NCBI GenBank assembly: GCA_032358165.1
Contig: JAALGY010000038.1
Location: 868,001 to 932,000, forward strand
Direction: 5' to 3'
From: Diplosphaera chodatii
Lineage: Eukaryota; Chlorophyta; Trebouxiophyceae; Prasiolales; Stichococcaceae
DNA length: 64,000 nucleotides
Under the pieces are notes generated by a model. The model did no database searches, was not told the DNA's origin, and was given only the letters and a program-made list of their open reading frames with translations. Within the stretch, counting starts at the first letter, position 1; every line of letters starts with the position of its first letter. Below, in pieces: positions 20,001 to 53,081 of this stretch. The translations under genes were made by a program, and so were the position numbers.

Positions 20001-20834
20001 GCCAACAGCCCCATCCCCCCGCACATCATCACCGCCGGCGGTGGAGCCATGACGGCCTTCATCGGCACGGCGGCCGGCGCCGCTGCAGCCACCGGCCAGC
20101 TGCCGCAGCCCCGCAACTATGGAGAGGCCCTGGAGCATGTGGCTGGCGCCCTGGAGTCCCTAGCTGCTCAGGCCACGCGGCATGGCTCCCCATCCAAGGG
20201 CCTGGCACTCCGGCTGCTGGCGCTGCAGCTGCTGCAGCTGGCACTGGTGGCCAAGCAACAACCGGGGCAAGGCACTAGTGAGGCGACATCCTCAGCACAA
20301 GCAGCAGAGCACCAGCAGCAGGCCGTGCTGCTCTGCCGCTCCAGCTCAGCACCCGTGCCACAGCCGCCCAGCAGCGGCAACAGCGCTCTTGACCAAGCAG
20401 TGGCATCGAGCGGCGCCGCCATTGTTGCCGACTTTTCGCCACGGATATCAGCCGCACTGCATGCGGTGTCCAGCAATGCGCAGCGCAACGCCACGGCTCT
20501 GGCACACTACGGCACTGGCAGCGGTGACCTGCCCGACGCCTGGGAGGCTGCATATGAGGGGGGGCTGGAGCTCAGTCAGGCCGCTGCTGCTGAGGAACTG
20601 CTCGGCAACTTCACTGCCGCGGCTCACGCATACGCCAAGGCGGTGGCCATCATGGAGTTCATTGCCGGCGAGGCTGCGCGACTGCCGCTGCAGCCGGCGT
20701 TGGAGCTCAACCCGCCGCAGCTCGCACGCGTGCAGCGCTATGCTGCCGCCATTTCCAGTCGCCTGGCCGCTGCGGCCGCCAATCTGCAGCAGCCAACTGA
20801 TGCCGGGACCCATGCGGCTGGCCAAACACACTGA
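17080..20834 (+). CDS. ATG1: ATG1/ULK-type autophagy serine/threonine kinase
   Basis: The ATG at 17080 opens directly into a kinase domain: [20 protein letters not shown] (Gly-rich loop) and [20 protein letters not shown] (catalytic Lys). It continues [20 protein letters not shown], then HRDLKPQN split by an intron before Arg, [33 protein letters not shown], and [20 protein letters not shown]. All catalytic motifs are intact. '[10 protein letters not shown]' and '[12 protein letters not shown]' are characteristic of ATG1/ULK kinases, which start autophagosome formation. A long Ser/Ala/Pro-rich linker follows; it contains [11 protein letters not shown], an acidic 'DYVxVD' motif seen in ATG1 homologues. 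The C-terminus ([20 protein letters not shown] to [11 protein letters not shown]) is helical and corresponds to the paired MIT-type domain that binds ATG13. At least eight exons; the last is very long. Confidence 0.85.
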
Positions 20835-37223: not shown

Positions 37224-39113
37224 ATGGCCTCTCACCTGCTGAACTTCAGTGTTTATCAGAACCTGCATCAGAGCTTCAGATCGACCAGGACCCAAGCAAG
37301 GAGTCAGACTAACCGGAGCAGCCTGCACGTTGTTGCTGCACAGCCTCTGGCAGTTTTGAGGGTCAGCAGCATTGCGGCAACATGCATTTTTGGCACTCTC
37401 TACTGCATGACCGCCCATGACACACTCTGTCAAAATGACTGATACGAAGCAATGATCTGTGTAGGATGGCGTGCAAAAAGCAGGCAAGGCGGCGCTGATC
37501 GCCGTAGTGCTCAGCACCGGCATCAGCATCGCACCGCCAAATTTGCAACTGCTGCAGCCTGCGCAGGCCGATGATGACGTGGGTACCAATGTGCATGCAT
37601 TCCATGATACTGGAAAACAACTATGCCGCTCTGCTGTGTGAACTCACCGCTGGCTGCATGCATACAGGCAGGTATGTCGGCATCGCAGAAGCGTTTTGCT
37701 GCAAATGAGCGCCGCAAAGCCCTGCTCGCCAGAGCGTGAGCACGTGTATCAACTGTTGTGCGGAGGCCCTCTGCATCGTCATGCCATCGTGTTCTTGACG
37801 AGCTGTTGTAGCATATGTTGGATGAAGTGGCCATTCTGTCTTGGGGCAACAGGCGAGAGACTGCACTGAGCAGAGGAGAGCTGGCAGGCAGTGGAGATGC
37901 CACGCCCTCAGACAGCAGCAGCGGCAGTGGTGACATTGACGCAACAGGCGGTCTGTACTTCTTCAACGTCAAGCCAGAGCAGCCGCAGCTGAGGACGGAA
38001 TCCTCCGCGGTGCCGGCATCAGCCAAGCCCGAGCTGCCAAAGATTCCAGCGCCGGAGCTGCCAAAGTCGTCCATGCCGGAGTCACCCAAGTGCGGGCTTC
38101 CTAACCCTTTGTGGCGGTCGGCATCTGTGCAAAGCTGCATCTAGCAACGATCGCAAGGCTACGAGGGTGTCCCGCCGAGATGTATACCCAATGACTGCCA
38201 GGTTCAGCATTCCCACCAAGCCGGTGCAGCCGCCGCCCGGCCCCAGCATTTCATCGCCAAAGGAGGTCCCCAAAACGGAGTCACCGGTGGTGCCGGTCCC
38301 CGCGCCGGGCTCCGCCAGCAAGCAGGCAGCAGCACCCGTCACACAGATGACCGCAGCGGTGTCGGCGCCAAGCTCAGAGGGCACCACCGGCAGCATGCAG
38401 GGCTTCAACTGGGGCGACTTGGCAAAGGTGACCATCGACACCGCAGTGCTGCCACATGATCTACCTGCTAGCTGGTGTGCATGCAGGTGCTGCAGTGAGC
38501 CATAGGCCATAAAAAAGCCGCTGCCTCACCTGGCGTGCATGCTGCAGGACACACGTGAGTCGAAGCCGAAGACAAACCCATTTGCTGCGGTGGAGCCAGA
38601 AAAGAAACAGACCGCTATATCTCAGGACACGAAGGACCGCCTGGCAAAGCAGGTGCGCAGCCGTCCGGCAACATCACACAAATGCATGCATGCACTGCAA
38701 TCATGGCGAATCTGTCTGAAGGAACTGTTGTCCCGATATCACTTCTGTTATGGCACCGATAACAGGCTCAGCAGCAGAGTGCGCCGGTGGACAAGCGTAA
38801 GTCCAAGAGGCATGGCCCGCCCCTGTTCTTGGTGCAGCTGGTCGTCACAGTCGGCATTGTTGGCGCCCTTGCCGCCGCCATCATCAAGTGAGGCGTGCAC
38901 TACAATGTGGTGTCATGCATGGCATTGCCGGTACATGCATCAGGGTGTGATTCGAGTCGCCTACTTGTCAGCTGCGACAACGGTGGTGTTTGCTGCTGCT
39001 AACTCTTTCGCAGGTACGATGGTATGATGGAGAATGGCGCAAAGCTGGAGAAGCTCATCATTCAGGTGGCAGAGAAGGTGCAGCTGCCGAAGTCCCCGGC
39101 AAACGACACATAG
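37224..39113 (+). CDS. Plastid protein with thylakoid-type signal and C-terminal transmembrane helix
   Basis: The ATG at 37224 opens a Ser/Arg/Gln-rich transit peptide (MASHLLNFSVYQNLHQSFRS). The second exon joins in phase 0: DGVQKAGKAALIAVVLSTGI SIAPP...LLQPAQADDD. That is a hydrophobic core ending in Ala-X-Ala before acidic residues, the form of a thylakoid lumen signal. Later exons read GLYFFNVKPEQPQL, repeated Pro/Lys units (PELPKIPAPELPKSSMPESP), KPVQPPPGPSISSPKEVPKT and NPFAAVEPEKKQTAISQDTK. A membrane helix follows (LFLVQLVVTVGIVGALAAAI), then EKLIIQVAEKVQLPKSPAND to the stop at 39111. I do not recognise the family. The layout suggests a protein in or at the thylakoid or inner envelope membrane with a Pro-rich linker. 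Confidence 0.6.
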
Positions 39114-39298: not shown

Positions 39299-41821
39299 TC
39301 ACAGCTTGCCCTGCTTCTTCAGCCCATCTCTGAAAGCCTCCAGCACGATGGCAATGTTGGCGGGACGAGCGTTGTGCCCCTGCAGCGTATCGTGACCTGG
39401 GTGAGCATCATTGCTGAGTATGCCAGCAGGTCACCAAACGCACTTCACCGAGGGTGACGCGAGATTACCATGATGCCGACGCGCCACACTTTGCCGATGC
39501 TTGGACCCAGGCCGCCTGAGATCTCCACATTGTAGACGTCCATGGCGTTCTTGATCAACGCGGCAAAGTCCACACCCTCTGGGATCTGTGACGTAGCGGG
39601 AAGCGCCCTGTCAAGACCGCCGCTGTCCGTGAGGACATCATCACAACTCAAGCGGGGATGCTGCAGGATGCATGCGCAGACCTTGATGGTGTTGACGGTG
39701 ACCAGCCGCTCGTCTGGGTTCTCCACATACGGCTCAAGACCTTCAGCAAGCAGCAGTATCAGTTGGCGCACACGGGTGTGTTGATGCGTCACCACCAAGG
39801 TCACACTGCCTGGAGGCATGGCATGCAGCGGCAGCATCACGTCCGACTCACCCATCTCAGACAGGCCGGCCCACAGCTGCTCATGGCATGCCCGGTGGTC
39901 CGCCCACAGCTTGTCCAGCCCTTGCCGCGTCGTGATGGCCAGCGCCTCCCGCATAGCATACCTGTGACAGGCAACTCGGAGTCATGCCTCCCTGGATGCA
40001 CGTGCATCGCCCACTCTCAACTGCTCGCTCGGTCCAGCTGTCACCGTCACTTCGCATGCTCACCAGGTGGACACCGCGCCAGTGTGGTGGTAGAAGCGCT
40101 TGTCGAACCAGCCTGTGGCATGCAAGGCATGCTGATGAACACATGTTGTGGTGATGTAAACCTTCCCAAGACAGACTCACGGTTCGCAGCCCTGTGAAGA
40201 GTACAAGCGAGACCACACGCTCTCTGTGCTCACCCCAGTAGTCACCGACCAGGTTCAGGTCCATCGCATACGTTGCTGGCTTCGTTTTGCGGTCCAGGAT
40301 CTTCTGCATAGCCCGCTCGCTCAGGAACAGCGGCGCGGCGCCTGTGGCAAGGGGGGGTTCCTCTTGTCCTTCGGCAGTGGACAATCTTTGTCCATGGCAG
40401 CATGTCATGTTGGAACAACTGACAGCGCATCACTATCGCTGAATCACGTGAACGTGCACCTGGCGGCCCGCCAAGGACCTTCTGGGAGCCGGAATAGATC
40501 GCGTCGATGCCCCAGGCATCGGCATACAGCGGCACGCCGCCCAGCGTGCACACCGTATCCACCAGCAGCAGCGTGCCATTCTTTTGGCACAGCTCACCCA
40601 GGCCCGAGAGATTTTGGTGCACGCCTGTGCTGGACTCGCCCTGCAATGGCCACCAGATCAGGTGCATCAGGACTGCAAAGGTCCCTGCAAGGACACTGCG
40701 TTTTGAATCGACCACAGGGCTGGGTTGGTGTGGATGCCTGCCAACCACGATAAGCCACCTGGCACAGGAACAGGACGGCTGGCTTGTGCGTCTCCACAGC
40801 GGTCTTCAGCTCGTCGTATGTGAAGCCACGGCCTCCCTCACACTCCAGGTTGATCACGTCCGCTGTCGAGTCAAGCACAGTATGTCAGTCTGAGCTGTGA
40901 TGCCACTGAGCCGGACCTCGCCAGCCAACATCATGGCAGCTTACCCACGATCACGAAACCTGTTTACCATTATAGCGGCCGGCCATGTCCACCACGCGGC
41001 TGCCCCAGATGCCGTTGTTGCCAACGACAACCTTCTCTCCCGGCTCCAGCAGGTTGGCCACGCAGGTCTCCATGCCATTGTGACCTGCAATTGCATGCCC
41101 GAGCAGATGAAACCAATGCCGGGTCACCAAATCGCACGGCTCAAAGTCAAGCATTCACTATCTGGTCAATGTGCATTCCGTCCAGCTTTCTCACCTGTGC
41201 CGGTGACAAGCAAGGTGTACTTGCTGTCTGTCTGGAAGGTGTAGCGCAGGCCTTCCTGGATGTCGTCCATAATCTTCAGGAACGGCGGGTGCAGGTGTCC
41301 TGTACCAGTGTGGTGGAAGGGATGTAGGGTACCAACAGGCTGTGCATCTGGTCTGGTGTGCAATGATTTCATATGAGAATTTGCAAGCAATCTGGTGCTT
41401 GCATGCCATGACTCTGGCCACATTGCATGGCAGCAGGTGCACACCAAGCAGCGGCAGGGACTGTGCTGCCAGCACTGCGGGGTGAGCGTTGCTGGGACCC
41501 GGGCCCATCAGCAGCCGCTCGGGCACCTGTACAACGTTGGTGCAAAACGGTATCGACATGCACGTACTAGCGGCATGTGATGTGTTGTGCGCAGATCATG
41601 CATGGGATACCCCCGATGACAGACAGTGTGATCGGCGCACACTACAGCCCACAACGTACCACCATCTTGCCGTTGAGCGCGGCCTGGTGGGTGTTGCTGA
41701 TGGACGGGCAGTCCTCGCCTGGTCGGCCCACTGGAGCATGCAGCTGGGGTGTGGTGCTCAGCGACCGCATGCATGCCTGCCCCTGGGCAAACAGCCGCTG
41801 GGCGACCGCTCGTCTGGACAT
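39299..41821 (-). CDS. AGT: Alanine-glyoxylate aminotransferase (AGXT type), mitochondrial
   Basis: This PLP enzyme converts L-alanine + glyoxylate to pyruvate + glycine. The ATG at 41821 gives [24 protein letters not shown], a typical mitochondrial presequence. Family blocks follow in order: [130 protein letters not shown] (PLP Lys), [44 protein letters not shown] and [18 protein letters not shown]. This is close to human AGXT along its whole length. The C-terminus is GKL, not a canonical PTS1 but of the same shape as the weak KKL of human AGXT. About nine exons. The gene is head-to-head with AlaAT, which would regenerate its alanine. Confidence 0.92.
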
Positions 41822-42166
41822 CCTGTGGCCTGGCGCGCAGCGATCCGCACCCTACCTCGGGTCCAGCAAGCGCACTCCACCTTCACAACACCCCAACCTC
41901 AACCACCAGGATGGAGGCCCAGGCGACGTGTGTTCCCCGGGATCTGACCACAGTGGAACGTAATGCTAATTGCAGGATCGATCACAGCGTCTGGGCCAAT
42001 ACTGCGCGTCGCTCTGTGTACACACCGATGCGCCACACATCGGGCCGAAGGTTTGCTGGATTCCCAGCGGGGACTCGCAGCCCGATTGCAGCGATAACCG
42101 AAGCATGTGGCAGCCAGTCACATGCCCAGCACTGCTCTGGGTGCGTGGCAAAACCGCAAGCCGCGC
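41822..42166. promoter_or_regulatory. Bidirectional promoter region, AGT / AlaAT
   Basis: About 345 bp (300 bp if AlaAT starts at 42122) separate the outward-facing starts of two enzymes of one pathway. A CCAAT pentamer lies near 41986 (GGGCCAATACTG). CAGCAAGCGCACTCC near 41864 resembles CAGCAAGCACATCC near 47800 in the GYD1/SGAT spacer, but the match is short. No CIA5/EEC consensus was found by eye. Confidence 0.5.
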
Positions 42167-43753
42167 ATGTTGATCGCCGCGTGCCGACGACAGCTGCGCC
42201 TCGCACAGCTCGTCCCGCGCCTGGAGCTGTTGGGCGCAGACAGCTCATCTGCATCTTCCCAAACCTACAGACAACTGCACAGCATGGTGACCACAGCGGA
42301 GGTGGAGAAGGTCGCAGCAAAGCCCGCCTGGCCTATCACAATCGACAACATCTCGCCGAACCTCGTCACAGCCCAGTATGCAGTGCGTGGAGAGATCGTG
42401 GCAATGGCGCAGAACATCCAGAAGGAGATGAAGGATGGCAAGTCCTTTCCGTTCAAAAAGGTGGTCATGTGCAACATCGGCAACCCCCAGGCGCTGGGCC
42501 AGCAGCCCATCACCTTCTTCCGCCAAGTGCTGGCGCTTTGCGACTATCCCAAGCTGCTGGACGACCCGAATGCGGCAAAGATCTTCCCGAAGGATGCCGT
42601 GGCGCGTGCGCGCAAGTATCTTGACGCCATTGGCAGCACCGGCGCATACACCGAGTCGCAGGGTGCCATGGTGTTCCGGGAGGAGATTGCACAGGGCATG
42701 GAGGAGCGGGACGGGCACCCCGTGGACACCAACTGCCTGTTCATGACGGACGGCGCGTCGCCCAGCGTGCACCGTGTCATCGAGCTGCTCACCCGCAACA
42801 GCGATGACGCCTTCCTGACGCCCATTCCCCAGTACCCCCTGTACTCGGCGGCGCTGGCGCTGCACGGCACCACGCTGGCGCCCTACTACCTGGACGAGGA
42901 GAGCAACTGGGGGCTCAGCATCCCGCACCTGCGGGAGCAGACCAAGAAGGCAAAGGCGGACGGGAAGACTGTGCGGGCGCTGGTGGTGATCAACCCGGGC
43001 AACCCCACTGGCGGCGTGCTGGCCAAGGGCAACCAGGTTGACATTGTACGGTTTTGTGAGGAGGAGAACATGGTTCTGATCGCAGACGAAGTGTACCAGA
43101 CAAACATCTATGCGGCCGGCAAGGAGTTCCATAGCTTCAAGAAAATCGTGCGGGATCTCAAGAGCGATGTGCCTCTGGTCTCGATGAATTCGACCTCCAA
43201 GGGATTCTTTGGGGAGTGCGGCCGGCGCGGCGGGTACTTTGAGATAGTGAACATGAGTGACGACATCCAGCAGCAGCTGTACAAGGGTGCATCCATCAAC
43301 CTTTGTTCGAACCTGGGCGGCCAGATTGTTATGGCACTCGTGATGAAGCCACCAAAGTCTGGGGAGGAGTCGTACGAGCTGTATGAGAAGGAGCGGGATG
43401 CGGTGCTGGGCAGCCTCAAGCGGCGCGCCCTCATCATGGTGGACGCCCTCAACAAGCTGGACGGCATCTCCTGCCAGCCCACCGAGGGTGCACTGTATGT
43501 GTTCCCACAGCTGCTGCTGCCCAAGAAGGCAGTGGAAGCGGCGAAGGAGGAGGGCAAGTCGCCCGACTTCCTGTACTGCCGCGCCCTGCTCCAGGAGAAG
43601 GGCATTGTGACGGTGCCAGGCAGCGGCTTCAAACAGGCAGACGGCACCTACCATTTCCGGACCACCATCCTGCCCAGCGAAGAGGACATCGAGCACGTTG
43701 CGCAGGACCTGTCTGACTTCCACAACGGCTTCTTGAAGAAGTATCAGGACTGA
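42167..43753 (+). CDS. AlaAT: Alanine aminotransferase, mitochondrial, intronless
   Basis: A PLP enzyme for L-alanine + 2-oxoglutarate <-> pyruvate + L-glutamate. The chosen start at 42167 gives the Arg-rich presequence MLIAACRRQLRLAQLVPRLE; an in-frame ATG at 42122 would add 15 residues. At 528 residues it has the usual length for plant and algal AlaAT. Motifs: NISPNLVTAQYAVRGEIVAM, VVMCNIGNPQALGQQPITFF, IGSTGAYTESQGAMVFREEI, FMTDGASPSVHRVIELLTRN, PIPQYPLYSAALALHGTTLA, LVVINPGNPTGGVLAKGNQV, VLIADEVYQTNIY, and SMNSTSKGFFGECGRRGGYF with the PLP lysine near residue 345. It ends FHNGFLKKYQD. It is one uninterrupted frame, unlike AGT, SGAT and HPR1 nearby. It can refill the alanine used by AGT from the pyruvate AGT makes. 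Confidence 0.95.
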   Translation: MLIAACRRQLRLAQLVPRLELLGADSSSASSQTYRQLHSMVTTAEVEKVAAKPAWPITIDNISPNLVTAQYAVRGEIVAMAQNIQKEMKDGKSFPFKKVVMCNIGNPQALGQQPITFFRQVLALCDYPKLLDDPNAAKIFPKDAVARARKYLDAIGSTGAYTESQGAMVFREEIAQGMEERDGHPVDTNCLFMTDGASPSVHRVIELLTRNSDDAFLTPIPQYPLYSAALALHGTTLAPYYLDEESNWGLSIPHLREQTKKAKADGKTVRALVVINPGNPTGGVLAKGNQVDIVRFCEEENMVLIADEVYQTNIYAAGKEFHSFKKIVRDLKSDVPLVSMNSTSKGFFGECGRRGGYFEIVNMSDDIQQQLYKGASINLCSNLGGQIVMALVMKPPKSGEESYELYEKERDAVLGSLKRRALIMVDALNKLDGISCQPTEGALYVFPQLLLPKKAVEAAKEEGKSPDFLYCRALLQEKGIVTVPGSGFKQADGTYHFRTTILPSEEDIEHVAQDLSDFHNGFLKKYQD

Positions 43754-44177
43754 TCAAAAGCAGCTCACAAAGTTGTTACGTTTGGGGATTTGAAGTTCAT
43801 CTGTTTTGGCGTGTGTTTCTTGTTGCTTTGCTGGCTGGGCAAATGCACAGAACTCACGATTGATTTGTAACATATGCTGTTGCTCTCAAAAGCATGATGC
43901 TGCTGACCAGCTGATGGTCTGCTCACTTACAACAGCATTGAAAGCAGCATGATTCCTGATCCTGGCCTGTAAAGCAGCATGTGCACTGCACAGCAGCAGT
44001 ACTACAATGGTGAATCCCGACCCGAAAGTCCCAACGGTGCCTGGCCAGCTCGAGGCAGATTGCTGTTCTTCTCTCTGCACTCTGTCAACCAAACCCACGA
44101 ATACTTGCAAAACCACTCCCCAGCTCCTCCAATTCCTCCAAGGCGAGTCATGCCAGGGGATAGAGGTGGCACAGCTT
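43754..44177. other. Convergent 3' spacer, AlaAT / GYD1
   Basis: 424 bp lie between two stop codons facing each other. The sequence is more AT-rich than the flanking coding regions, fitting two 3' UTRs. TGTAA, a common chlorophyte poly(A) signal, occurs near 43868 on the plus strand. No gene is seen. Confidence 0.45.
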
Positions 44178-47100
44178 TCAGTTGTCAATTGTGACATCTG
44201 GCACATCCGGCACCTTCCCGCCGCTGCTGGCTGCCTTCTTGGGCTTGGTGGCCTCGTCGATGAGGTACACCAGGCCGCGGAAGTTGATGCCCGAGTGGTT
44301 GCTGAGGCTCATCTCGCAGGTGCGGCTGGTGGAGTAGCCGTCGGAGCAGCCCGACGTCTCCAGGTGCTGCAGCGCCCCCGCCGTCAGCTCCGGGTACCGC
44401 ATCCCCCGGTCGCCAGCCATGCCGCAGCAGGGCACGCCGGAGGGCACCACCTCCTCGGCGCACATGGCGGCCAGCTGCGTGAAGGCGTCGGACACGCCCA
44501 TCTTCTTGCTGGAGCAGGGCACGTGCACGGCGATGCGCTGCTTGACCTTCGAGAACTCGAGCTTATCTGCCAGGAACAGTTTGATGAACTGCACTGGCTC
44601 GTACAGCGCAAACTTGAGGTCTGGAGTCTGCAGCGCGCCCTTTAGCGTCGACAGGCAGGGGCTGGTGTCACACACGATGGGGATCTTGCCGCCGTCGCTC
44701 GCCTTCATGAGCGCCTCCTCCAGCTCCCCGGCCTTCACAGCGGCAGCCTCCTTGAAGCCGCGCGAGTTGAATAGCATGCCACAGCACTGGTTGCCCAGGC
44801 TCTCGGGGTAGATGACCTCGTAGTTGGCCTTGCCGAACAGGCTCAGCAGCTTGTCGTGCACCGGCTCCGACTCGGGGTCGCCCCGCGAGGGGCCCATCAT
44901 GCGCGTCACGCACGATGGCAGGTACACCACCTTGCGGGGCACGCCCTCCGCAGGTGCTGTTGGCTTTGGAGGGTTCATGTTGAGCTTTGAGGCACCCCGA
45001 GGCATGTAGGGGTTCCACTCTGGGATGAGGTGGTTGCTGGCCTTGTTGAGGCGGCTGCTGATGTACTGCAGGGGCGTGGGGCCCAGCAGCCGGTGCGCAA
45101 AGTCCACCGCGTTCAGGAACGGCGGCACCATCGCGTTCAGCTTGCTGAAGTTGTTGGCCAGTGACATGGCGCCGCTGGACGCGCGCTTCCACTCCTTGAG
45201 CTCCTCGGACCGGATGTGCTTGATCAGCTCGCCCGTGTTGATCTTGACGGGGCACTTCTCCTGGCACATGCCGTCCGCCGCGCAGGTGGCGTCGCCCTGG
45301 TAGTCGTAGATGGCCTTGAAGTCCTTCAGCCGCTGCTGCTCCGCTTGTGTGGGGCTGGGCAGCTGCTGCAGGCGGGCCATCTCCTTATATGAGGCGATGC
45401 GCTGGCGCGGCGTCAGCGTGATGTCACGGCTGGGGCAGTTGCTCTCGCAGAAGCCGCACTCGATGCAGTGGTCCACAATCTCCGAGGCAACTGGCGATGG
45501 CTTGAGGTGCTTGATGTGCAGGTTGGGGTCCTTGTTCAGCACGACGCCAGGGTTCAGCACATCATCAGGGTCGAACAGCGACTTGAGGCGCCACATCAGG
45601 TCGTACGCCTTGCCTCCCCACTCCATCTCAACATAGGGAGCCACGTTGCGGCCGGTGCCATGCTCGCCCTTCAGGGAGCCGCTGTGCTTGGTGGCGACGA
45701 TGTAGCACATCTCGTCCATCATAGCGCCAAAGCGCTCGACCTCCTCGGGGGTGCGGAAGCCCTGGGAGAACACCAGGTGCAGGTTGCCCTCGAGCGCATG
45801 GCCGAAGCAGGACGCGTCCTTGTACCCGTACTTCTCAAACATCTCGACCAGGTCCGTCGTCATGTCCGCCAGCTTGTCCACCGGGCACGCCACATCCTCA
45901 ATGAGGAAGGATGTGCCAGCCTCGCGACCGCCGCCAACAATGGGAATGAGACCCTTGCGCACGTCCCAGAAGACCTTGGACTCGGCATCGTCCTTGCGGA
46001 AGGGGTAGTTGTCCAGGCCCTTGAGCTGGTCGGTGTGCGCTCCAAACGGCAAGCCGCTGTCGATCAGAGCGCTGTTCACCTCGTTGATGCGAGCCTTCAG
46101 CCCCTCAGCCCCATTGGCGCGGCACTCGATGAGCAGTGCAGCGGCGGTGGGCCCAGCGTCCTTCATGTCGGGCACCAGCCGCTTCAGGTCCTCGTCAATC
46201 TCGCACTCCCTGAGGGCAGCGCGGTCAAACATCTCCACAGCGTCCACTGCTGTCTTGTCGCGCAGCACAGATGCTGCGGCGCAGGCCGAGTGAACATCTG
46301 GGAACATCACAAATGCGGACGACTTGTTGGGCCACTCAGGCACAGTGTTGTAGGTCGCCTGTGCCACAAAGCCGAAAGTGCCCTCGCTGCCAATCATGAG
46401 CCGCTTGATGATCTCGATTGGGTCGCTTGTTGGGAAGTCCACAAGCGCATTGAGCGAGTACCCTGTGGTGCACTTGATGGCGAACTTGCGGCGGATGAGG
46501 TTGGTCAGCAGCTGGTCCGACTGCACCTCGGTGGCCAGGGCAACCACACCATCGCACAGCTCCTTGTGCGACTCCAGGAATGCAGCGCGGGAGGCTGCGT
46601 CAGCAGTGTCGAGGACGGTGCCATCGACAAAAACGACGCGCATGTCCCTGAGCGTGTGGTAGGTGTTCTGGCTGACGCCGCAGCACATGCCAGAGGAGTT
46701 GTTGGACACCATGCCACCAACCATGCAGCTGTCAATAGACGATGGGTCAGGTCCGATCTTGTACTGGACAGGGTGGTTGTGCTTGTTCTTGTGGGCTGCA
46801 AGGATGCGGTTGACCTCGCCACCAATCAGCCCAGGCTCGACCGTGATCTGGCTGCCATCGCCGTGGATGGTGTAGTTGCGGAAGTTCTTGCCGGTGTGGC
46901 TGAGCTTCAGCAGGACGCTGTCGGTGATGGCCTGGCCCGACAGGCTGGTGCCCGCGGCTCGGAAGGTGACGGGCACCTGCATCTTCCGCGCGATGGGCAG
47001 GATGCGCGCCACCTCCGCCTCGCTGTGCACCTTGACCACCAGCTTGGGGTTGAGCCGGTAGAAGCTGGCGTCCGTGCCGTACGCGAAGGTGCGCACGGGG

Positions 47101-47561
47101 TCTGTGAACTGCCGCTCCTTGGGGATGAAGGAGCTGATGGCCTCGCTGAAGGCGGCGTAGCGGCCGTCCTCGATGCGCTTGCCGTCCTTGTTCTGCCACA
47201 CTGAGGAGACCTCCGCGCTGCCGTCGTCGCAGAGCATGCTGATGGCACCAACATGGTCTGTGACGACCTCTGGCGAGGAGCCCGAGCTGGACACAACCCT
47301 GATGGTCTCTTCATCTGACAGTTCCTCCTGCCGTGCTGGAAGGGCTGACACCAGCGACCGCGGCGCTGACAGGGCGTCGCGCGTGGCAGGGGTGCTCCTG
47401 TCGACTGCGGTGCGGATGCTGGAGCCGCGGGAGGCGAGCAGGCCGGAGTGGGCAAGCCGCACCAGCTGCTGTTGCTCACCGGCGACCACGTTGGCAGTGC
47501 TGTTGCTGCCAAACAGGACCGCCGAACGCCGCGCGAGGCGTGCTAATTCGCGACGCCCCAT
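44178..47561 (-). CDS. GYD1: Glycolate dehydrogenase (FAD / Fe-S / CCG fusion), mitochondrial, intronless
   Basis: It oxidises glycolate (and possibly D-lactate) to glyoxylate, passing electrons to the respiratory chain. The ATG at 47561 gives MGRRELARLARRSAVLFGSN, a mitochondrial presequence, and an 1127-residue protein. That is close to the Chlamydomonas enzyme (about 1.1 kDa x 1000 residues, from memory). The FAD domain has VPVTFRAAGTSLSGQAI (about residue 195), GGMVSNNSSGMCCGV and KHSGSLKGEHGTGRNVAPYV. Two 4Fe-4S motifs follow: CIECGFCESNC (about 695) and CAADGMCQEKC (about 759). Two CCG cysteine-rich domains carry GNQCCGMLFNSRG (about 922) and GVPCCGMAGDRGMRYPEL (about 1040). It is thus a fusion equivalent to bacterial GlcD/GlcE plus GlcF. 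One uninterrupted frame despite its size. Head-to-head with SGAT, tail-to-tail with AlaAT. Confidence 0.93.
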   Translation of the reverse strand: MGRRELARLARRSAVLFGSNSTANVVAGEQQQLVRLAHSGLLASRGSSIRTAVDRSTPATRDALSAPRSLVSALPARQEELSDEETIRVVSSSGSSPEVVTDHVGAISMLCDDGSAEVSSVWQNKDGKRIEDGRYAAFSEAISSFIPKERQFTDPVRTFAYGTDASFYRLNPKLVVKVHSEAEVARILPIARKMQVPVTFRAAGTSLSGQAITDSVLLKLSHTGKNFRNYTIHGDGSQITVEPGLIGGEVNRILAAHKNKHNHPVQYKIGPDPSSIDSCMVGGMVSNNSSGMCCGVSQNTYHTLRDMRVVFVDGTVLDTADAASRAAFLESHKELCDGVVALATEVQSDQLLTNLIRRKFAIKCTTGYSLNALVDFPTSDPIEIIKRLMIGSEGTFGFVAQATYNTVPEWPNKSSAFVMFPDVHSACAAASVLRDKTAVDAVEMFDRAALRECEIDEDLKRLVPDMKDAGPTAAALLIECRANGAEGLKARINEVNSALIDSGLPFGAHTDQLKGLDNYPFRKDDAESKVFWDVRKGLIPIVGGGREAGTSFLIEDVACPVDKLADMTTDLVEMFEKYGYKDASCFGHALEGNLHLVFSQGFRTPEEVERFGAMMDEMCYIVATKHSGSLKGEHGTGRNVAPYVEMEWGGKAYDLMWRLKSLFDPDDVLNPGVVLNKDPNLHIKHLKPSPVASEIVDHCIECGFCESNCPSRDITLTPRQRIASYKEMARLQQLPSPTQAEQQRLKDFKAIYDYQGDATCAADGMCQEKCPVKINTGELIKHIRSEELKEWKRASSGAMSLANNFSKLNAMVPPFLNAVDFAHRLLGPTPLQYISSRLNKASNHLIPEWNPYMPRGASKLNMNPPKPTAPAEGVPRKVVYLPSCVTRMMGPSRGDPESEPVHDKLLSLFGKANYEVIYPESLGNQCCGMLFNSRGFKEAAAVKAGELEEALMKASDGGKIPIVCDTSPCLSTLKGALQTPDLKFALYEPVQFIKLFLADKLEFSKVKQRIAVHVPCSSKKMGVSDAFTQLAAMCAEEVVPSGVPCCGMAGDRGMRYPELTAGALQHLETSGCSDGYSTSRTCEMSLSNHSGINFRGLVYLIDEATKPKKAASSGGKVPDVPDVTIDN

Positions 47562-47812
47562 GCTTGCAGGTGTGCTGCAGCTGCTGCAAGTGCGGTGCAA
47601 AACGTATCCAGGCTCACCGGGCGCTGCTGGACGCCACTCTCTGCCTCAGGATGTCAGGGGAAGCACAGGGGGCGTGATAAGGGATCAGCATACGTGGCCC
47701 CGATGAGGTTCTGGCCACTCGCGAAGCCAGACTGATCTACGGTACTCGTGCCTGTCCATGCAGCGTAGCAGCACGGGCGCACACCCCTCAACTCAGCAAG
47801 CACATCCCCGCG
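47562..47812. promoter_or_regulatory. Bidirectional promoter region, GYD1 / SGAT
   Basis: Only 251 bp separate the outward-facing ATGs of glycolate dehydrogenase and serine-glyoxylate aminotransferase. No TATA box is obvious. Shared cis-control of both genes is inferred from the spacing. Confidence 0.5.
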
Positions 47813-50369
47813 ATGCTTCGGCAGGCGGCAGGCCGCCGTGGGGGCCTGTTGAGCCTGTTGTCCAGAGCCGGGTTGAGCAACGGCGAAGCCTGCGCATGCA
47901 GCGCCACACAGCTCACCAGCGCGCAGGTGCGCAGTGTCAGCAACGCGTTTGCGGGTTTTGCATGGTGCACGATCGTCGTATGCGGCTCTGGACGCACATC
48001 GCATTGCATGAGGCCACAGATCGCTGGAGCAGCTGGAGCAGCCTTCAGCACGTGTTGTGCTGGCGTGCAGGAGGCCTGCGGCAGCAGCGCGCAACTTAGG
48101 ACAGCGGTGACATACGCTGGCTCTGCAGACTTTAAGTATGTCCCGCCGGGGCGCAACCACTTGTTCGTGCCGGGTGAGGCACCTGCCGCTTGCTCCGTCC
48201 GTTGTGGCAGCGATCGATGCCATGCATGACGCACGCGGAGAGCAGACAGACACACAGCACCATGGACAGCCATGGCACATCGCCTGGTGACCACAGGCCC
48301 TGTCAACATCCACGACCGGGTTCAGCGGGCAATGGCGGTGCCGTCACTCAACCACCGGGACCCGTGGTTCGCCGACTTCTTCATCAAGGTGCTTGAGGAT
48401 GTGAAGGTCATCTTCAACACCTCCGACGTGGCGCCGAGCTCCAAGATCACGCCGTTCATCTTCCCCGGCACGGGCACTGGCTGCTGGGAGTCAGCGCTGC
48501 AGAACACGCTGTCACCAGGCGACAAAATCGTCACTTTCCGCTACGGCATGTTCTCCAAGCTCTGGGTACGTGTGGCTTGAAACGTTGCACGGTCACGATG
48601 GCTATGCATGGCTCTGGAATAGTTCTGGACCAGTGTGCTGTGCATCATGTGGTAACCCTGATTGACAATGCATGTGATGCATGTGTGTAGGTGGACATGA
48701 TGGAAGAGCTGGGCCTGGAGGTGAAGGTGATCGACTCACGGTGGGGCGAGGGTGCCAACGAGGAGAAGCTGGCGCAGGCTTTGAAGGTGAGGGTTGGCAG
48801 TGTCATGCAGCACCCGCGGCAGACTGTATGTGACCATCCACCTTTTGAAAGATGGTGAGCCACACACCTACCCTTTGAGACCGCTGTTCGTGATGCACGC
48901 GTAGGCAGATCCAGGTATCAAGGCTGTTGCCGTGGTACACAATGAGACTGCCACGGGCGTCACCAGCGATATTCCCCGCATCCGGCAGACCATGGATGAT
49001 GCGGGCTCAGACGCCCTGCTGCTGGTAAGGCTGAGACGATGCCATGTCAGTGGTGGTCTGACACAGCCTCAGGCGGATTGCTCACGGTTGCAGCTGCTTG
49101 CAGGTCGATGGTGTGTCATCGATTGGCGCGCTGCCATTCGAGATGGACAAATGGCGAGTGGACGTCGCTGTCACCGGCTCCCAGAAGGCGCTCTCGCTGC
49201 CGACGGGCCTTGGTGTCATGGCAGCGTCAGAGAAGGTGTGCATACCCGAGACACTGCATGTCTGTGCGGACTGCTGTGCAGCGTGAAGTGGAGTGCTCAG
49301 CACAGAGCATGTAGTGGCTGCCTCAATGCACCTGACTGTGTGCACATCACCATGTCCCTGCTTGTGATGCAGGCGCTGGAGGCGCGCAAGAGTGCCAAGA
49401 TGCTGCGCAAGTACTTTGACTGGGACTGGCAGCTGGGCCAGAATGCATCCGGCGGCGTGCCCTACACCCCATCCATCCCGCTGCTCTTTGGCCTGCGCGA
49501 GTCACTGGACCTGCTTACAGACGAGGGCATTGCTCAGGTCGTGGCACGCCACCAACGGTGAGCCATGCTGAGTTTCTGCAGGGCCCCGTACCGATATGCT
49601 GCCTGCGCAGCATCAACTGCCAGTAGCACTCCCCGAAACACTGTTGCCTGCGCTTTGGGCTGCCTGCATACAGCTGATAATCGGTCCGATCTGGAACTGT
49701 AGGCTGGCAGAGGGCACCCGCCGCGCCGTTGCTGGCTGGGGCCTGGAGCTGCTGTGCAAAGAGAAGCGGTGGAAGAGCGACAGTCTGACTGTGGTGGAGG
49801 TGCCGTCCTCAGTCAACGCCGACGACATCGTGCTCAACGCATACTCGCGATACAACCTGTCACTGGGCGTCGGCCTCGCCAAGGTGTCTTGAAGGCTACA
49901 TACGGAGTGCATCTGCACTCAAACCTGTGCTGTGACGTCAGACAGCAGCCAGCCCGACCCCAGCTGATCATTGACGCTTGCGCTGCGCGCACAGGTTGCA
50001 GGAAAGGTGTTCCGCATCGGACACCTTGGCAACAGCGATGAGGTGATGATGCTGGGGGCGATTGCGGGCGCAGAGATGGCGCTGATAGATGCGGGCTACA
50101 CCAACTTCACACCCGGCGCCGGTGTCGGGGAGGCCGTCAAGTACTGGCAGGTGAGCCATACAGTCTTTGCTACTGTACAGCGGCACGAATGCACAGAGTG
50201 CAACCCGTGCAATCACTATGCGAGCAGAGTGTTCACCAGAACCTGGACACCATCTGCCTGCTTCTGATGGCGGCCTGCACTGATGTATTGCGATATCAAT
50301 GCCCATTTACTTCATGCCGTGCAGTCCACCGCCAAGTCCATCCGCGGCCGGGAGCTCACAACCAAGTAG
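47813..50369 (+). CDS. SGAT: Serine-glyoxylate aminotransferase, mitochondrial
   Basis: A PLP enzyme converting L-serine + glyoxylate to hydroxypyruvate + glycine. The ATG at 47813 gives a mitochondrial presequence (MLRQAAGRRGGLLSLLSRAG). Conserved blocks: YVPPGRNHLFVPG | PVNIHDRV, ITPFIFPGTGTGCWESALQN, LSPGDKIVTFRYGMFSKLW, VVHNETATGVTSDIPRIRQT, VDGVSSIGALPFEMDKWRVD, VAVTGSQKALSLPTGLGVMA (PLP Lys in GSQKAL), GGVPYTPSIPLLFGLRESLD, YNLSLGVGLAK and VAGKVFRIGHLGNSDEVMML. It matches the plant photorespiratory AGT1/SGAT subgroup, not the AGXT type of the neighbouring AGT. The end is STAKSIRGRELTTK, without the C-terminal SRI signal of plant peroxisomal SGAT. About nine exons. The first intron (47927-48070, 144 nt) has no in-frame stop. 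Its product feeds HPR1, the next gene. Confidence 0.92.
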
Positions 50370-50832
50370 ACCTCAGCAAAATGGGAGAGCACGGTCAGAA
50401 TCAGAGTTGCAAAGGCAGGGTATGCAGATGCTGGGCCGCACATTGTTTGCACTGCTATCACAGCTGACGGTTGCAATTCCTGCGTGCGTTGCACCCAGCG
50501 TGGCTTGCGAAGCGCTGGCTGCATGCAGGCAAGCCCAAGCAACGATCGGTATCAATGTTCAGGCCAGACACCCAGGTCATGTCCTTGTGTTTCATGTTAT
50601 CTCTGCTGTAAACTGTCGTACCTGCCTCTACCATCCAGCTTCCCTCTAATCGAGTGCCGGAGCAGAGCAAATGATTGGTTGAGATCAGGGCTCACCCCGT
50701 GCAAAATTCCTCTGTGCGGCTTGTTGCACGCTCATTGTATACTCACGTTGGTAGTGTACTCACACACACAACCTGACCATCCAGACAGTTGTTGACAGCA
50801 GACCAGGCAAATTGTGAGCAGGTGGCTAGGTG
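50370..50832. promoter_or_regulatory. Intergenic region SGAT - HPR1
   Basis: About 460 bp between tandem plus-strand genes. It should hold the SGAT 3' UTR and the HPR1 promoter. No coding frame, RNA gene or repeat is evident. Confidence 0.4.
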
Positions 50833-53081
50833 ATGGCCCTCCTGCGGAGTGCTCTGCTCGGACTCCGCAGCAAGGCAGCGCCGGCTCGCCTGTGCACCAG
50901 CATCCGTGCTATGGCTTCGGAAGCCGGCGATCTGCCTGTTCAGGTGTGCTGCCCCACCATGATCAAGCTGTGTTTGGATGCCGCAAGCCGCATGCATGCA
51001 GCGAGTTCGTGTCGCTCTGTTGTGGTCAGGTGCACAATGAGGGCGGCCAGAAGCGGGTGCTGGTGACAAAGAATCTGCCAGGCGAGCGGTGGCTGAAGCT
51101 GCTCACATCAAGCGACTGCCGCGTGGAGGTGTGCACGTCGGAAAAGACCATCCTCAGCAACGATGACATCAAGAAGCTGATCGGCGACAAGTGCGACGGC
51201 GTCATCGGCCAGCTGACAGAGGTGAGTAATGCAGAGATGGAGCAAAGCTGATTGGTGCCGCTCACATGGACCTTGGGCTCAGCGGGCTGAAGGAGCAGCT
51301 TGCTGCAGGGATGGAATGCCGATCTGTTCGAGCCGCTGAAGGCGGCGGGCGGCAAAGCGTACAGCAACTATGCAGTCGGCTACAACAACGTTGACGTGCC
51401 ATCTGCAACCGAGCGGGGCATTGCTGTGGGCAATACACCAGGTGACATGCCATATGCCACACCCTTTGTTGAGCGGCGTCAGCGGCACATTTGATGAGAA
51501 CAGTCCTGAACTCTCCTGCTTGCGTGCTATCGATGTCGATCTCACCGATGTCGCTGCATCTGCATAGGTGTGCTGACAGAGACCACGGCAGAGCTTGCAC
51601 TAGCGCTGACGTTCGCAGCGGCACGGCGAGTGGTGGAGGGTGACAAGTTCATGCGGGCTGGGCAGTACAAGGGCTGGCTGCCGAACCTATTCGTCGGTGA
51701 GTTCTACTTGCAAGGTGTCATGCACGTGCAGCGTGCAATATTAGTCACGCTGATCACTTGAGCTCTGGCACCTAGCAACCATGATGATACTCTCTTTGCA
51801 ACAGGCAACCTGCTGCAGCGTAAGACAGTGGGCATCATCGGTGCTGGCAGGATCGGGACAGCATATGCACGCATGATGATGGAGGTGGGCAATCCCACCA
51901 CCAGTTCAAAGCAACTGGGACTGCTGGTCGCACAAGCAGCCCACACGACATGCATGTGAACTCTGAGATTGTATTCTGCACCCGATGCAACTACATGGTT
52001 CGCACGCTGAATGCAACCGACGAACCGCACGCGCACAGGGCCACAAGTGCGACGTGGTATACTATGACGTGATGCCCAACTCGCGGCTGGAGGAGTACAG
52101 CAAGGAGTACAGCCGGTTGCTGGAGTCGCATGGCGAGGAGCCGATCTCCGCGCGGCGCCTCGACACCGTCGAGGATGTGCTGAAGCAGTCAGACGTGAGT
52201 CTGTGGTCTACATGTCAGCATTTCACCGCCCCAAAAGCTTGCTTGTCGCTTGTTGGCCCTTCGATCCACACCAGCAGCGACCTTAGCACTGCATCCAACG
52301 ATTTCTGACCACACAGCTGGCAGCATGTTCGCCGCAGGTCGTCAGCCTGCACTGCGCGCTGGACGAGAAGACGAAGCACCTGATCAACAAGGAGCGGCTG
52401 GGGCTGATGAAGGAGGACGCGGTGCTGGTCAACGCCGCGCGGGGGCCCGTCATCGACGAGGTCGCGCTGGTGGAGCACCTCAAGGCCAACCCCAACTTCA
52501 GGTGCGCAGCTTGGGACGCTTTGTGTCTTACCTCAGAGAGTACCTAGCATGCTCTGTTCTGTGTGGGGACCTGCGGTGTTGTCCGCTACCCTATCGTCTG
52601 GTTTTGGCAACAAAAGTCATCTTGGCCTTGACATGCGGGATCAAAAGCAGCCCCGCGAACGATGTCCCTTGGTTCCCTGCAGGGTGGGCCTGGACGTGTT
52701 CGAGGACGAGCCGGACACAAAGCCGGGGCTGCTCGACTGCGAGAACGCGGTGGTGGTGCCCCACATCGCCTCCGCCTCCTTCTGGACGCGCGCCGGCATG
52801 GTGCACTTGCGCCTATTGCCAAGTCCCTACACTAACGCGATGCATCTGACAGTGGCCAACGCAGCGAGCACCTGGAGATGGCCTGATGGTTCTGCACGCA
52901 GGCGACGCTGGCAGCGGCCAACGTGGCGAGCGTGCTGAAGAAGTGCCCGGTGTCCACCAGCCCGGACGTGCTCGCCTGGGTGGACGGCGAGTATAGTGCC
53001 ATCCCCAAGGCGGCGCCCAGCATCGTGAATGCCAAGGACCTGGGGCTGGAAACGCAATCTGGAGGTGGCAGCGCATACTGA
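50833..53081 (+). CDS. HPR1: Hydroxypyruvate reductase, mitochondrial
   Basis: NAD(P)H-dependent reduction of hydroxypyruvate to D-glycerate. The ATG at 50833 gives [23 protein letters not shown], a mitochondrial presequence. Exon 1 ends at 50943 and exon 2 is about 51030-51220. The protein follows plant HPR1: [100 protein letters not shown] (Rossmann loop), [20 protein letters not shown] and [40 protein letters not shown] holds the catalytic Arg, [20 protein letters not shown] the Glu, and [17 protein letters not shown] the His. The end is [12 protein letters not shown], with no SKL-type peroxisomal signal. About nine exons. It uses the hydroxypyruvate made by SGAT just upstream. Confidence 0.93.

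Follow-up and report, generated by a model that had tools for sequence, protein, structure and literature searches.

A five-gene photorespiration cluster present in two diverged copies in the green alga Diplosphaera chodatii, with two genes of one copy probably stripped of all introns in place

The window, a stretch of 64,000 nucleotides from Diplosphaera chodatii (contig JAALGY010000038.1, here C32, positions 868001-932000 of an 85.6-Mb genome in 55 contigs), contains five adjacent genes for photorespiratory enzymes, AGT, AlaAT, GYD1, SGAT and HPR1, and a search of the same genome with AlaAT revealed, besides the window itself, a series of AlaAT exons on another contig, C12, where all five genes are found in the same order. 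Two neighbouring genes of the window copy, AlaAT and GYD1, have no introns, and their counterparts on C12 have 12 and 22. We consider it probable that this is a cluster of trebouxiophyte type held in two diverged chromosome sets, in one of which AlaAT and GYD1 were overwritten in place by spliced complementary DNA (cDNA). The genes and the tract with the lost introns are as follows.

39299..41821, minus strand: AGT, alanine--glyoxylate aminotransferase (Aminotran_5); 12 exons, 423 amino acids; 11 introns, the C12 copy likewise.
42122..43753, plus strand: AlaAT, alanine aminotransferase; one exon, 543 amino acids, or 528 if the start is at 42167; 12 introns in the C12 copy.
44178..47561, minus strand: GYD1, glycolate dehydrogenase (FAD_binding_4, FAD-oxidase_C, Fe-S); one exon, 1127 amino acids; 22 introns in the C12 copy.
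47813..50369, plus strand: SGAT, serine--glyoxylate aminotransferase; 10 exons, 463 amino acids; 9 introns, the C12 copy likewise.
50833..53081, plus strand: HPR1, hydroxypyruvate reductase; 9 exons, 420 amino acids; 8 introns, the C12 copy likewise.
42373..47211: tract holding all 34 lost intron sites, from the first AlaAT site to the first GYD1 site.

When the reading frames were spliced at GT-AG sites five intact open reading frames (ORFs) were obtained, with coordinates as in the original prediction, in the order AGT(-), AlaAT(+), GYD1(-), SGAT(+) and HPR1(+) across 39299-53081. The coding regions are separated, in order, by 300, 424, 251 and 463 bp and form two head-to-head pairs (AGT/AlaAT and GYD1/SGAT), one tail-to-tail pair (AlaAT/GYD1) and one tandem pair (SGAT/HPR1). 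That the five genes are adjacent, consecutive and rightly named, as had been predicted, is borne out by the intact spliced ORFs together with the Pfam and structure matches given below, and gaps of 251-463 bp leave little space for a further gene in the 13.8 kb, which had been described as uninterrupted. Misassembly, named at the time as a finding that would overturn the cluster, is unlikely because C12 carries the five genes in identical order. Two details of the models probably need correction. The ATG at 42167 appears the likelier start of AlaAT than 42122, since the frame upstream of 42167 is broken in C12 by a one-base difference while the C12 gene is intact from the second ATG (527 amino acids), and the junction between exons 1 and 2 of the window SGAT model is probably wrong; an alternative GT-AG choice there gives three extra residues and leaves the intron counts unaffected.

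The similarity between the two contigs extends beyond the cluster: positions 9384-63900 of the window are collinear, in inverted orientation, with C12:168315-228000, and identity is 75.7-87.7% in the pieces that exceed 600 bp. With all first-look candidates scored, matches to GYD1, AlaAT and HPR1 were found at C32 and C12 only. Synonymous divergence (dS) between window and C12 is 0.216 for AGT, 0.288 for AlaAT (calculated with a few codons included that precede the second ATG), 0.237 for GYD1, 0.234 for SGAT and 0.249 for HPR1, and the ratio of nonsynonymous to synonymous divergence (dN/dS) lies between 0.04 and 0.10 for the five genes, with 0.042 for AlaAT and 0.044 for GYD1.

Splice-aware alignment of the window coding sequences to C12, in which GT-AG introns only were allowed, gave intron numbers (window/C12) of 11/11 for AGT, 9/9 for SGAT, 8/8 for HPR1, 0/12 for AlaAT and 0/22 for GYD1, so that all 28 introns of AGT, SGAT and HPR1 are kept in both copies. 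The C12 introns are 81-338 bp long. In the alignment chain the 34 removals follow one another without interruption from 42.37 to 47.21 kb, and at 33 of the 34 sites the intron is closed to the exact base with the reading frame kept. The spacer between AlaAT and GYD1 still aligns to C12, with a piece at 43644-44254 showing 76.6% identity. Elsewhere in the 54 kb compared, one other intron-sized removal was found and one stretch was flagged in the opposite direction at ~38.1 kb. The former, at window position 20171, is a GC-AG segment of about 120 bp that is kept in C12 and represents an isolated loss of a single intron in another gene; at 38092-38197 the window has about 106 bp that C12 lacks. 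The original prediction had overlooked both the C12 copy and the fact that the two genes are intronless in the window copy only.

We infer that the direction of change was loss and that the route was reverse transcription. Spliced messenger RNAs (mRNAs) of AlaAT and GYD1 would have been reverse-transcribed and the products recombined homologously with their own locus in the chromosome set of the window, which would remove all 34 introns and leave flanks and proteins intact. Since GYD1 and AlaAT occur at two loci only, the spliced version would have replaced each gene in place. The dS values of the intronless genes (0.288 and 0.237) are not below those of the other three, which argues against recent copying from the C12 side and hence for an intronless version derived from mRNA of the window's own lineage, a donor other than the C12 copy. 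Conversion between the copies, with C12 as donor, was rejected on the same dS values and on the fourfold differences, which are spread along GYD1. A passage of PMC3488318 describes recombination of genes with their cDNA as a plausible and common mechanism of intron loss that is short of direct evidence. The present case resembles that model in the removal at splice sites and at the gene's own locus; it differs in that all introns (22 and 12) are gone from two adjacent convergent genes and that further genes are affected, with intron-bearing counterparts in the same assembly.

These further genes were found when contigs were paired by position and intron states tallied for additional families; the DNA was read for GYD1, AlaAT, AGT, SGAT, HPR1, NFS1, SHMT and GCV-T, and every other pair was judged by its match pattern. 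The candidates scored numbered 12 of 37 in the Aminotran_5 family search, 87 of 134 for chaperonins and 36 of 60 for tRNA synthetases, and C14:73362, C26:288435 (ATP synthase search), C51:1193142 (tRNA-synthetase search) and the C3/C10 citrate synthase pair were excluded as unclear. Verified in the sequence are an NFS1-type cysteine desulfurase (Aminotran_5), uninterrupted at C49:1156053-1157144 and with 10 introns on C46; SHMT, uninterrupted on C51:82001-84200 and with at least 13 introns on C1:1984801-1988600; and the glycine cleavage T-protein gene GCV-T, uninterrupted on C7:1469801-1471700 and with at least 7 introns on C18:1620801-1623500. For SHMT and GCV-T one further short intron placed by the aligner near the stretch end was left out of the counts. 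The C51 SHMT has a mitochondrial-type N-terminus. By match pattern a citrate synthase is uninterrupted at C13:1640348-1641463 and split at C53:83862-86173, and an ATP synthase-type subunit is uninterrupted at C26:2717817-2718482 and split at C27:1528615-1529792. In the excluded citrate synthase pair, C3:854058-856415 shows one long 3' match where C10:3391800-3394278 is split, possibly a partial, 3'-sided intron loss. The same criterion indicated introns on both sides for GDC-P, a second SHMT, a second GCV_T-like gene, the C18/C7 Aminotran_5 gene, two ATP synthase-type pairs and the C7/C18 citrate synthase pair, and erasure was seen in none of 15 chaperonin (11) and tRNA-synthetase (4) pairs.

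The intronless state of several genes points to a recurrent process. All introns are gone from one member in 4 of the 8 photorespiration-related pairs and in 3 of the 24 remaining pairs (Fisher 0.047; 0.03 and 0.013 in an earlier round, before the citrate synthase search). These values are post hoc, since the families were partly picked after the first losses had been seen, and they serve as a lead rather than as a finding. Loss was verified in the sequence for five genes (GYD1, AlaAT, NFS1, SHMT and GCV-T), all of which presumably encode mitochondrial enzymes, in agreement with their basic N-termini, and these enzymes may be abundant; it is no more than a suggestion that the erasure favoured mitochondrial or highly expressed genes. 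Tentatively, and with clear reservations, the losses can be read as a burst of whole-gene, cDNA-templated erasure in one parental lineage, preferring abundant mitochondrial genes of carbon and nitrogen metabolism, with the intron-bearing twins remaining. Such a burst would cover GYD1, AlaAT, SHMT and GCV-T, half of the eight photorespiration-related pairs, and probably citrate synthase.

Pfam families support all five gene identities. The best matches among structures in the PDB are alanine-glyoxylate aminotransferase 2huf for AGT (E 2e-120), alanine aminotransferase 3tcm for AlaAT (E 6e-175), serine-glyoxylate aminotransferase 6pk1 for SGAT (E 8e-128) and glyoxylate reductase 2dbq for HPR1 (E 9e-61). 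Comparison with Chlamydomonas enzymes, proposed earlier as a check, agreed with the names for the three genes compared: GYD1 is 68% identical to CHLRE_06g288700 over 93%, SGAT 62% to CHLRE_01g005150 over 92% and HPR1 67% to CHLRE_06g295450 over 98%. GYD1 combines FAD_binding_4, FAD-oxidase_C and an Fe-S part in a single chain of about 1100 amino acids and is a relative of the GYD1 of C. reinhardtii; a scan of its alignment against viral contigs gave no relative. Prokaryotic NCBIfam models matched three of the five proteins with scores far under the model cut-offs and played no part in the naming. GYD1 would convert glycolate to glyoxylate, AGT and SGAT would make glycine from glyoxylate, taking the amino group from alanine or serine, AlaAT would regenerate alanine and HPR1 would reduce hydroxypyruvate to glycerate. 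By analogy with Chlamydomonas the five products probably act in the mitochondrion. A simple composition count of the N-terminal 40 residues gave 5-7 K/R and 1-2 D/E in the five proteins, and the C-termini are GKL, YQD, IDN, TTK and SAY, none of them SKL; the basic N-termini and these C-termini would be compatible with a mitochondrial route. In Chlamydomonas HPR1 (CHLRE_06g295450) has been shown to be mitochondrial (PMC8264790).

Three of the intervals between the genes bear on how the cluster may be expressed and on how the introns may have been lost.

41822..42121: AGT/AlaAT divergent interval, candidate shared promoter; 300 bp between start codons (345 bp if AlaAT starts at 42167); 298 bp in C12, 88% identical.
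43754..44177: AlaAT/GYD1 convergent spacer; 424 bp between stops; TGTAA on the plus strand at 43866 and 43968 and on the minus strand at 43927; the same set in C12.
47562..47812: GYD1/SGAT divergent interval, candidate shared promoter; 251 bp between start codons; 243 bp in C12, 81% identical.

With about 250-350 bp between their start codons, the head-to-head pairs AGT/AlaAT and GYD1/SGAT probably share promoters, which would keep the neighbours together and co-expressed. The motif TGTAA is taken here to be the poly(A) signal. Among the flanking ORFs (10 pieces of the window, a partial set) no Pfam family was matched above its cut-off.

For the occurrence of the cluster in other algae, locus tags and the longest_contig column were compared by eye for GYD1, SGAT and HPR1 among the top-ranking 120 of some 8000 rows listed for each gene, and this scope applies to all linkage results below. 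An equal longest_contig value was taken as the same contig; as the value can belong to another member of a protein cluster, and the shared contigs reach 5.8 Mb, a shared contig does not imply that genes are close. Nor do separate contigs imply distance where the assembly is fragmented or a second one, as may be the case for Haematococcus. The tally leaves out Auxenochlorella, whose GYD1 and SGAT rows stem from different assemblies, and Coccomyxa, for which each list names a different species, as well as rows that carry no NCBI name and species represented by a single gene. GYD1 and SGAT have adjacent tags in Chlorella vulgaris (D9Q98_005775/005776) and in Nannochloris (g09647/g09646), and in Micractinium CCAP 211/92 GYD1 and HPR1 are two tags apart (ABPG77_007858/007856). 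By the equal-size criterion GYD1 and SGAT share a contig in Symbiochloris and Apatococcus, GYD1 and HPR1 in Elliptochloris and Myrmecia, and SGAT and HPR1 in Chlorella sorokiniana and Micractinium conductrix. Each of the nine species that we take to be trebouxiophytes, seven of which are present in the GYD1 tree, thus has at least one linked pair, with 9 of 13 pairs linked in total, and in 13 other species the count is 1 of 17, the sole shared pair being GYD1 and HPR1 of Chlamydomonas, both on chromosome 6 but not tag neighbours. The synteny search that had been suggested, carried out here for these three genes, came out in favour of a neighbourhood conserved in other trebouxiophytes, with adjacent or nearly adjacent tags in three species. 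The accompanying view that the genes are scattered in plants and algae holds for part of the green algae but fails for Chlorella vulgaris, Nannochloris and a Micractinium, where GYD1 neighbours SGAT or HPR1.

Metagenome contigs of ~13, 41, 51, 105 and 324 kb carry two or all three of the genes by the same criterion; four of the five group with Chlorella and relatives in the GYD1 tree, and the 41-kb contig lies outside the tree sample. In this tree the window sequence joins Coccomyxa, Myrmecia, Symbiochloris, Apatococcus and Elliptochloris in a group (98/95) separate from that of Chlorella; the neighbourhood, if inherited, is then older than that split. Clustering as such is already known: photorespiration is listed in PMC7826186 among the green-algal gene clusters reported earlier, with reference to Foflonker et al. 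2016 on Picochlorum, and the Picochlorum cluster is mentioned again in PMC12198440, where some such clusters are stated to be co-expressed under salinity stress. Like the cluster in Picochlorum and green algae (Foflonker 2016; Foflonker and Blaby-Haas 2020, PMC7826186), as outlined there, the one described here consists of neighbouring nuclear genes conserved between species; it comprises five genes, AGT and AlaAT among them, in two diverged copies. The nitrate assimilation cluster of Chlamydomonas and other chlorophytes, named in PMC7826186, is likewise a cluster of primary metabolism but serves another pathway. Among the open-access papers listed by the literature searches, judged by title and the beginning of the abstract, none was recognised as describing a five-gene version or intron erasure in such genes. 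What is new is the five-gene extent and the surroundings, namely the second copy and the intron erasure.

The reverse of the proposed loss, an ancestrally intronless state with introns acquired by the genes on the C12 side, is very improbable: it needs 34 gains in two genes in addition to those of NFS1, SHMT and GCV-T, AGT, SGAT and HPR1 alongside share their intron sites in both copies, and the 62 C12 introns of the five genes show no mutual similarity at E<1e-3, on which ground gain of the introner type was rejected as well. That GYD1 and AlaAT of the window are intronless, full-length and intact would also be expected if they were dispersed processed retrogenes inserted into the cluster, the original genes having disappeared. 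This is the least credible of the explanations considered, as both genes lie at the homologous place between the same neighbours, the spacer and the upstream intervals align to C12 and no further copy of either gene was found in the own-genome searches; a retrogene at a new genomic site was accordingly not encountered, a poly(A) tail and target-site duplications not being searched for separately. More weight is due to a single event, though we regard it as rather unlikely, in which overlapping tail-to-tail mRNAs of AlaAT and GYD1 primed each other for reverse transcription and one intronless molecule replaced the 4.8-kb tract. All 34 losses lie in one unbroken tract, and the 424-bp convergent spacer with its placement of TGTAA, arranged alike in C12, allows for overlapping ends: an AlaAT mRNA ending after the second plus-strand TGTAA would overlap the GYD1 mRNA. 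Against this, complete loss occurs in single genes elsewhere, so that one-gene events suffice, and the chance that two of five cluster genes adjoin is 4 in 10.

A different kind of doubt concerns the cluster itself, since the five genes could be adjacent for no functional reason, their order persisting for lack of time. The collinearity of C32 and C12 does take in the flanks, linkage in other species was assessed for GYD1, SGAT and HPR1 out of the five genes, and in Nannochloris the HPR1 gene, like the SGAT gene in Myrmecia, lies on a contig apart from the linked pair, which counts against linkage. Chance is nevertheless an improbable explanation, given that GYD1 neighbours SGAT or HPR1 in Chlorella, Nannochloris and Micractinium, which branch apart from the window in the GYD1 tree, and that the arrangement has been published as a conserved green-algal neighbourhood (PMC7826186). 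Several observations weigh against a functional cluster with in-place erasure by cDNA, the reading preferred here. The conserved order spans the whole 54 kb compared and is therefore uninformative on selection for the cluster. No conserved 8-mer is common to the two divergent intervals, and one is common to the AGT/AlaAT and SGAT/HPR1 intervals, where shuffling gave a mean of 0.36. The first intron of AlaAT does not fit a GT donor; a GC donor fits, with one codon of difference. AGT, SGAT, HPR1 and GDC-P belong to the same pathway and are likewise presumed mitochondrial, yet they have kept their introns. Loss versus gain was judged from the two copies within this genome, so that the direction is polarised indirectly, and the gene models are predictions from the DNA.

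Because further gene families likewise occur as pairs on paired contigs, the genome as a whole looks like two diverged chromosome sets, brought about by hybridisation, duplication or a mixed assembly. In the ATP synthase search C55 gave two uninterrupted matches and C54 one, near the contig end, and these contigs may represent a single plastid and a single mitochondrial genome; one of each would point to a hybrid rather than to two algae in mixture, and a hybrid origin is what we infer. The trebouxiophyte genome of Auxenochlorella UTEX 250 has likewise been read as a putative allodiploid hybrid of two species (PMC12636532), compared with which the genome analysed here has 85.6 Mb; a search of the main text of that paper gave no hit for photorespir, gene cluster, intron loss or GYD1.

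With five members the cluster is a further case of a primary-metabolism gene cluster, of which few are known in eukaryotic phototrophs, and the head-to-head pair of GYD1 and SGAT is indicated as its conserved core. The larger point, and the part that deserves follow-up, is the erasure of introns, since the reverse-transcription route of intron loss is described in PMC3488318 as badly in need of experimental corroboration. In D. chodatii the traces of such an erasure are open to direct study, including tract ends, donor and targets. As intronless and intron-rich versions of the same genes stand at homologous places, and AlaAT and GYD1 have diverged in their coding sequence as much as the cluster genes beside them, it can be studied directly how introns influence expression, and if the losses did occur as a burst in one parental lineage, the intron-bearing twin in the other chromosome set would provide a built-in control.

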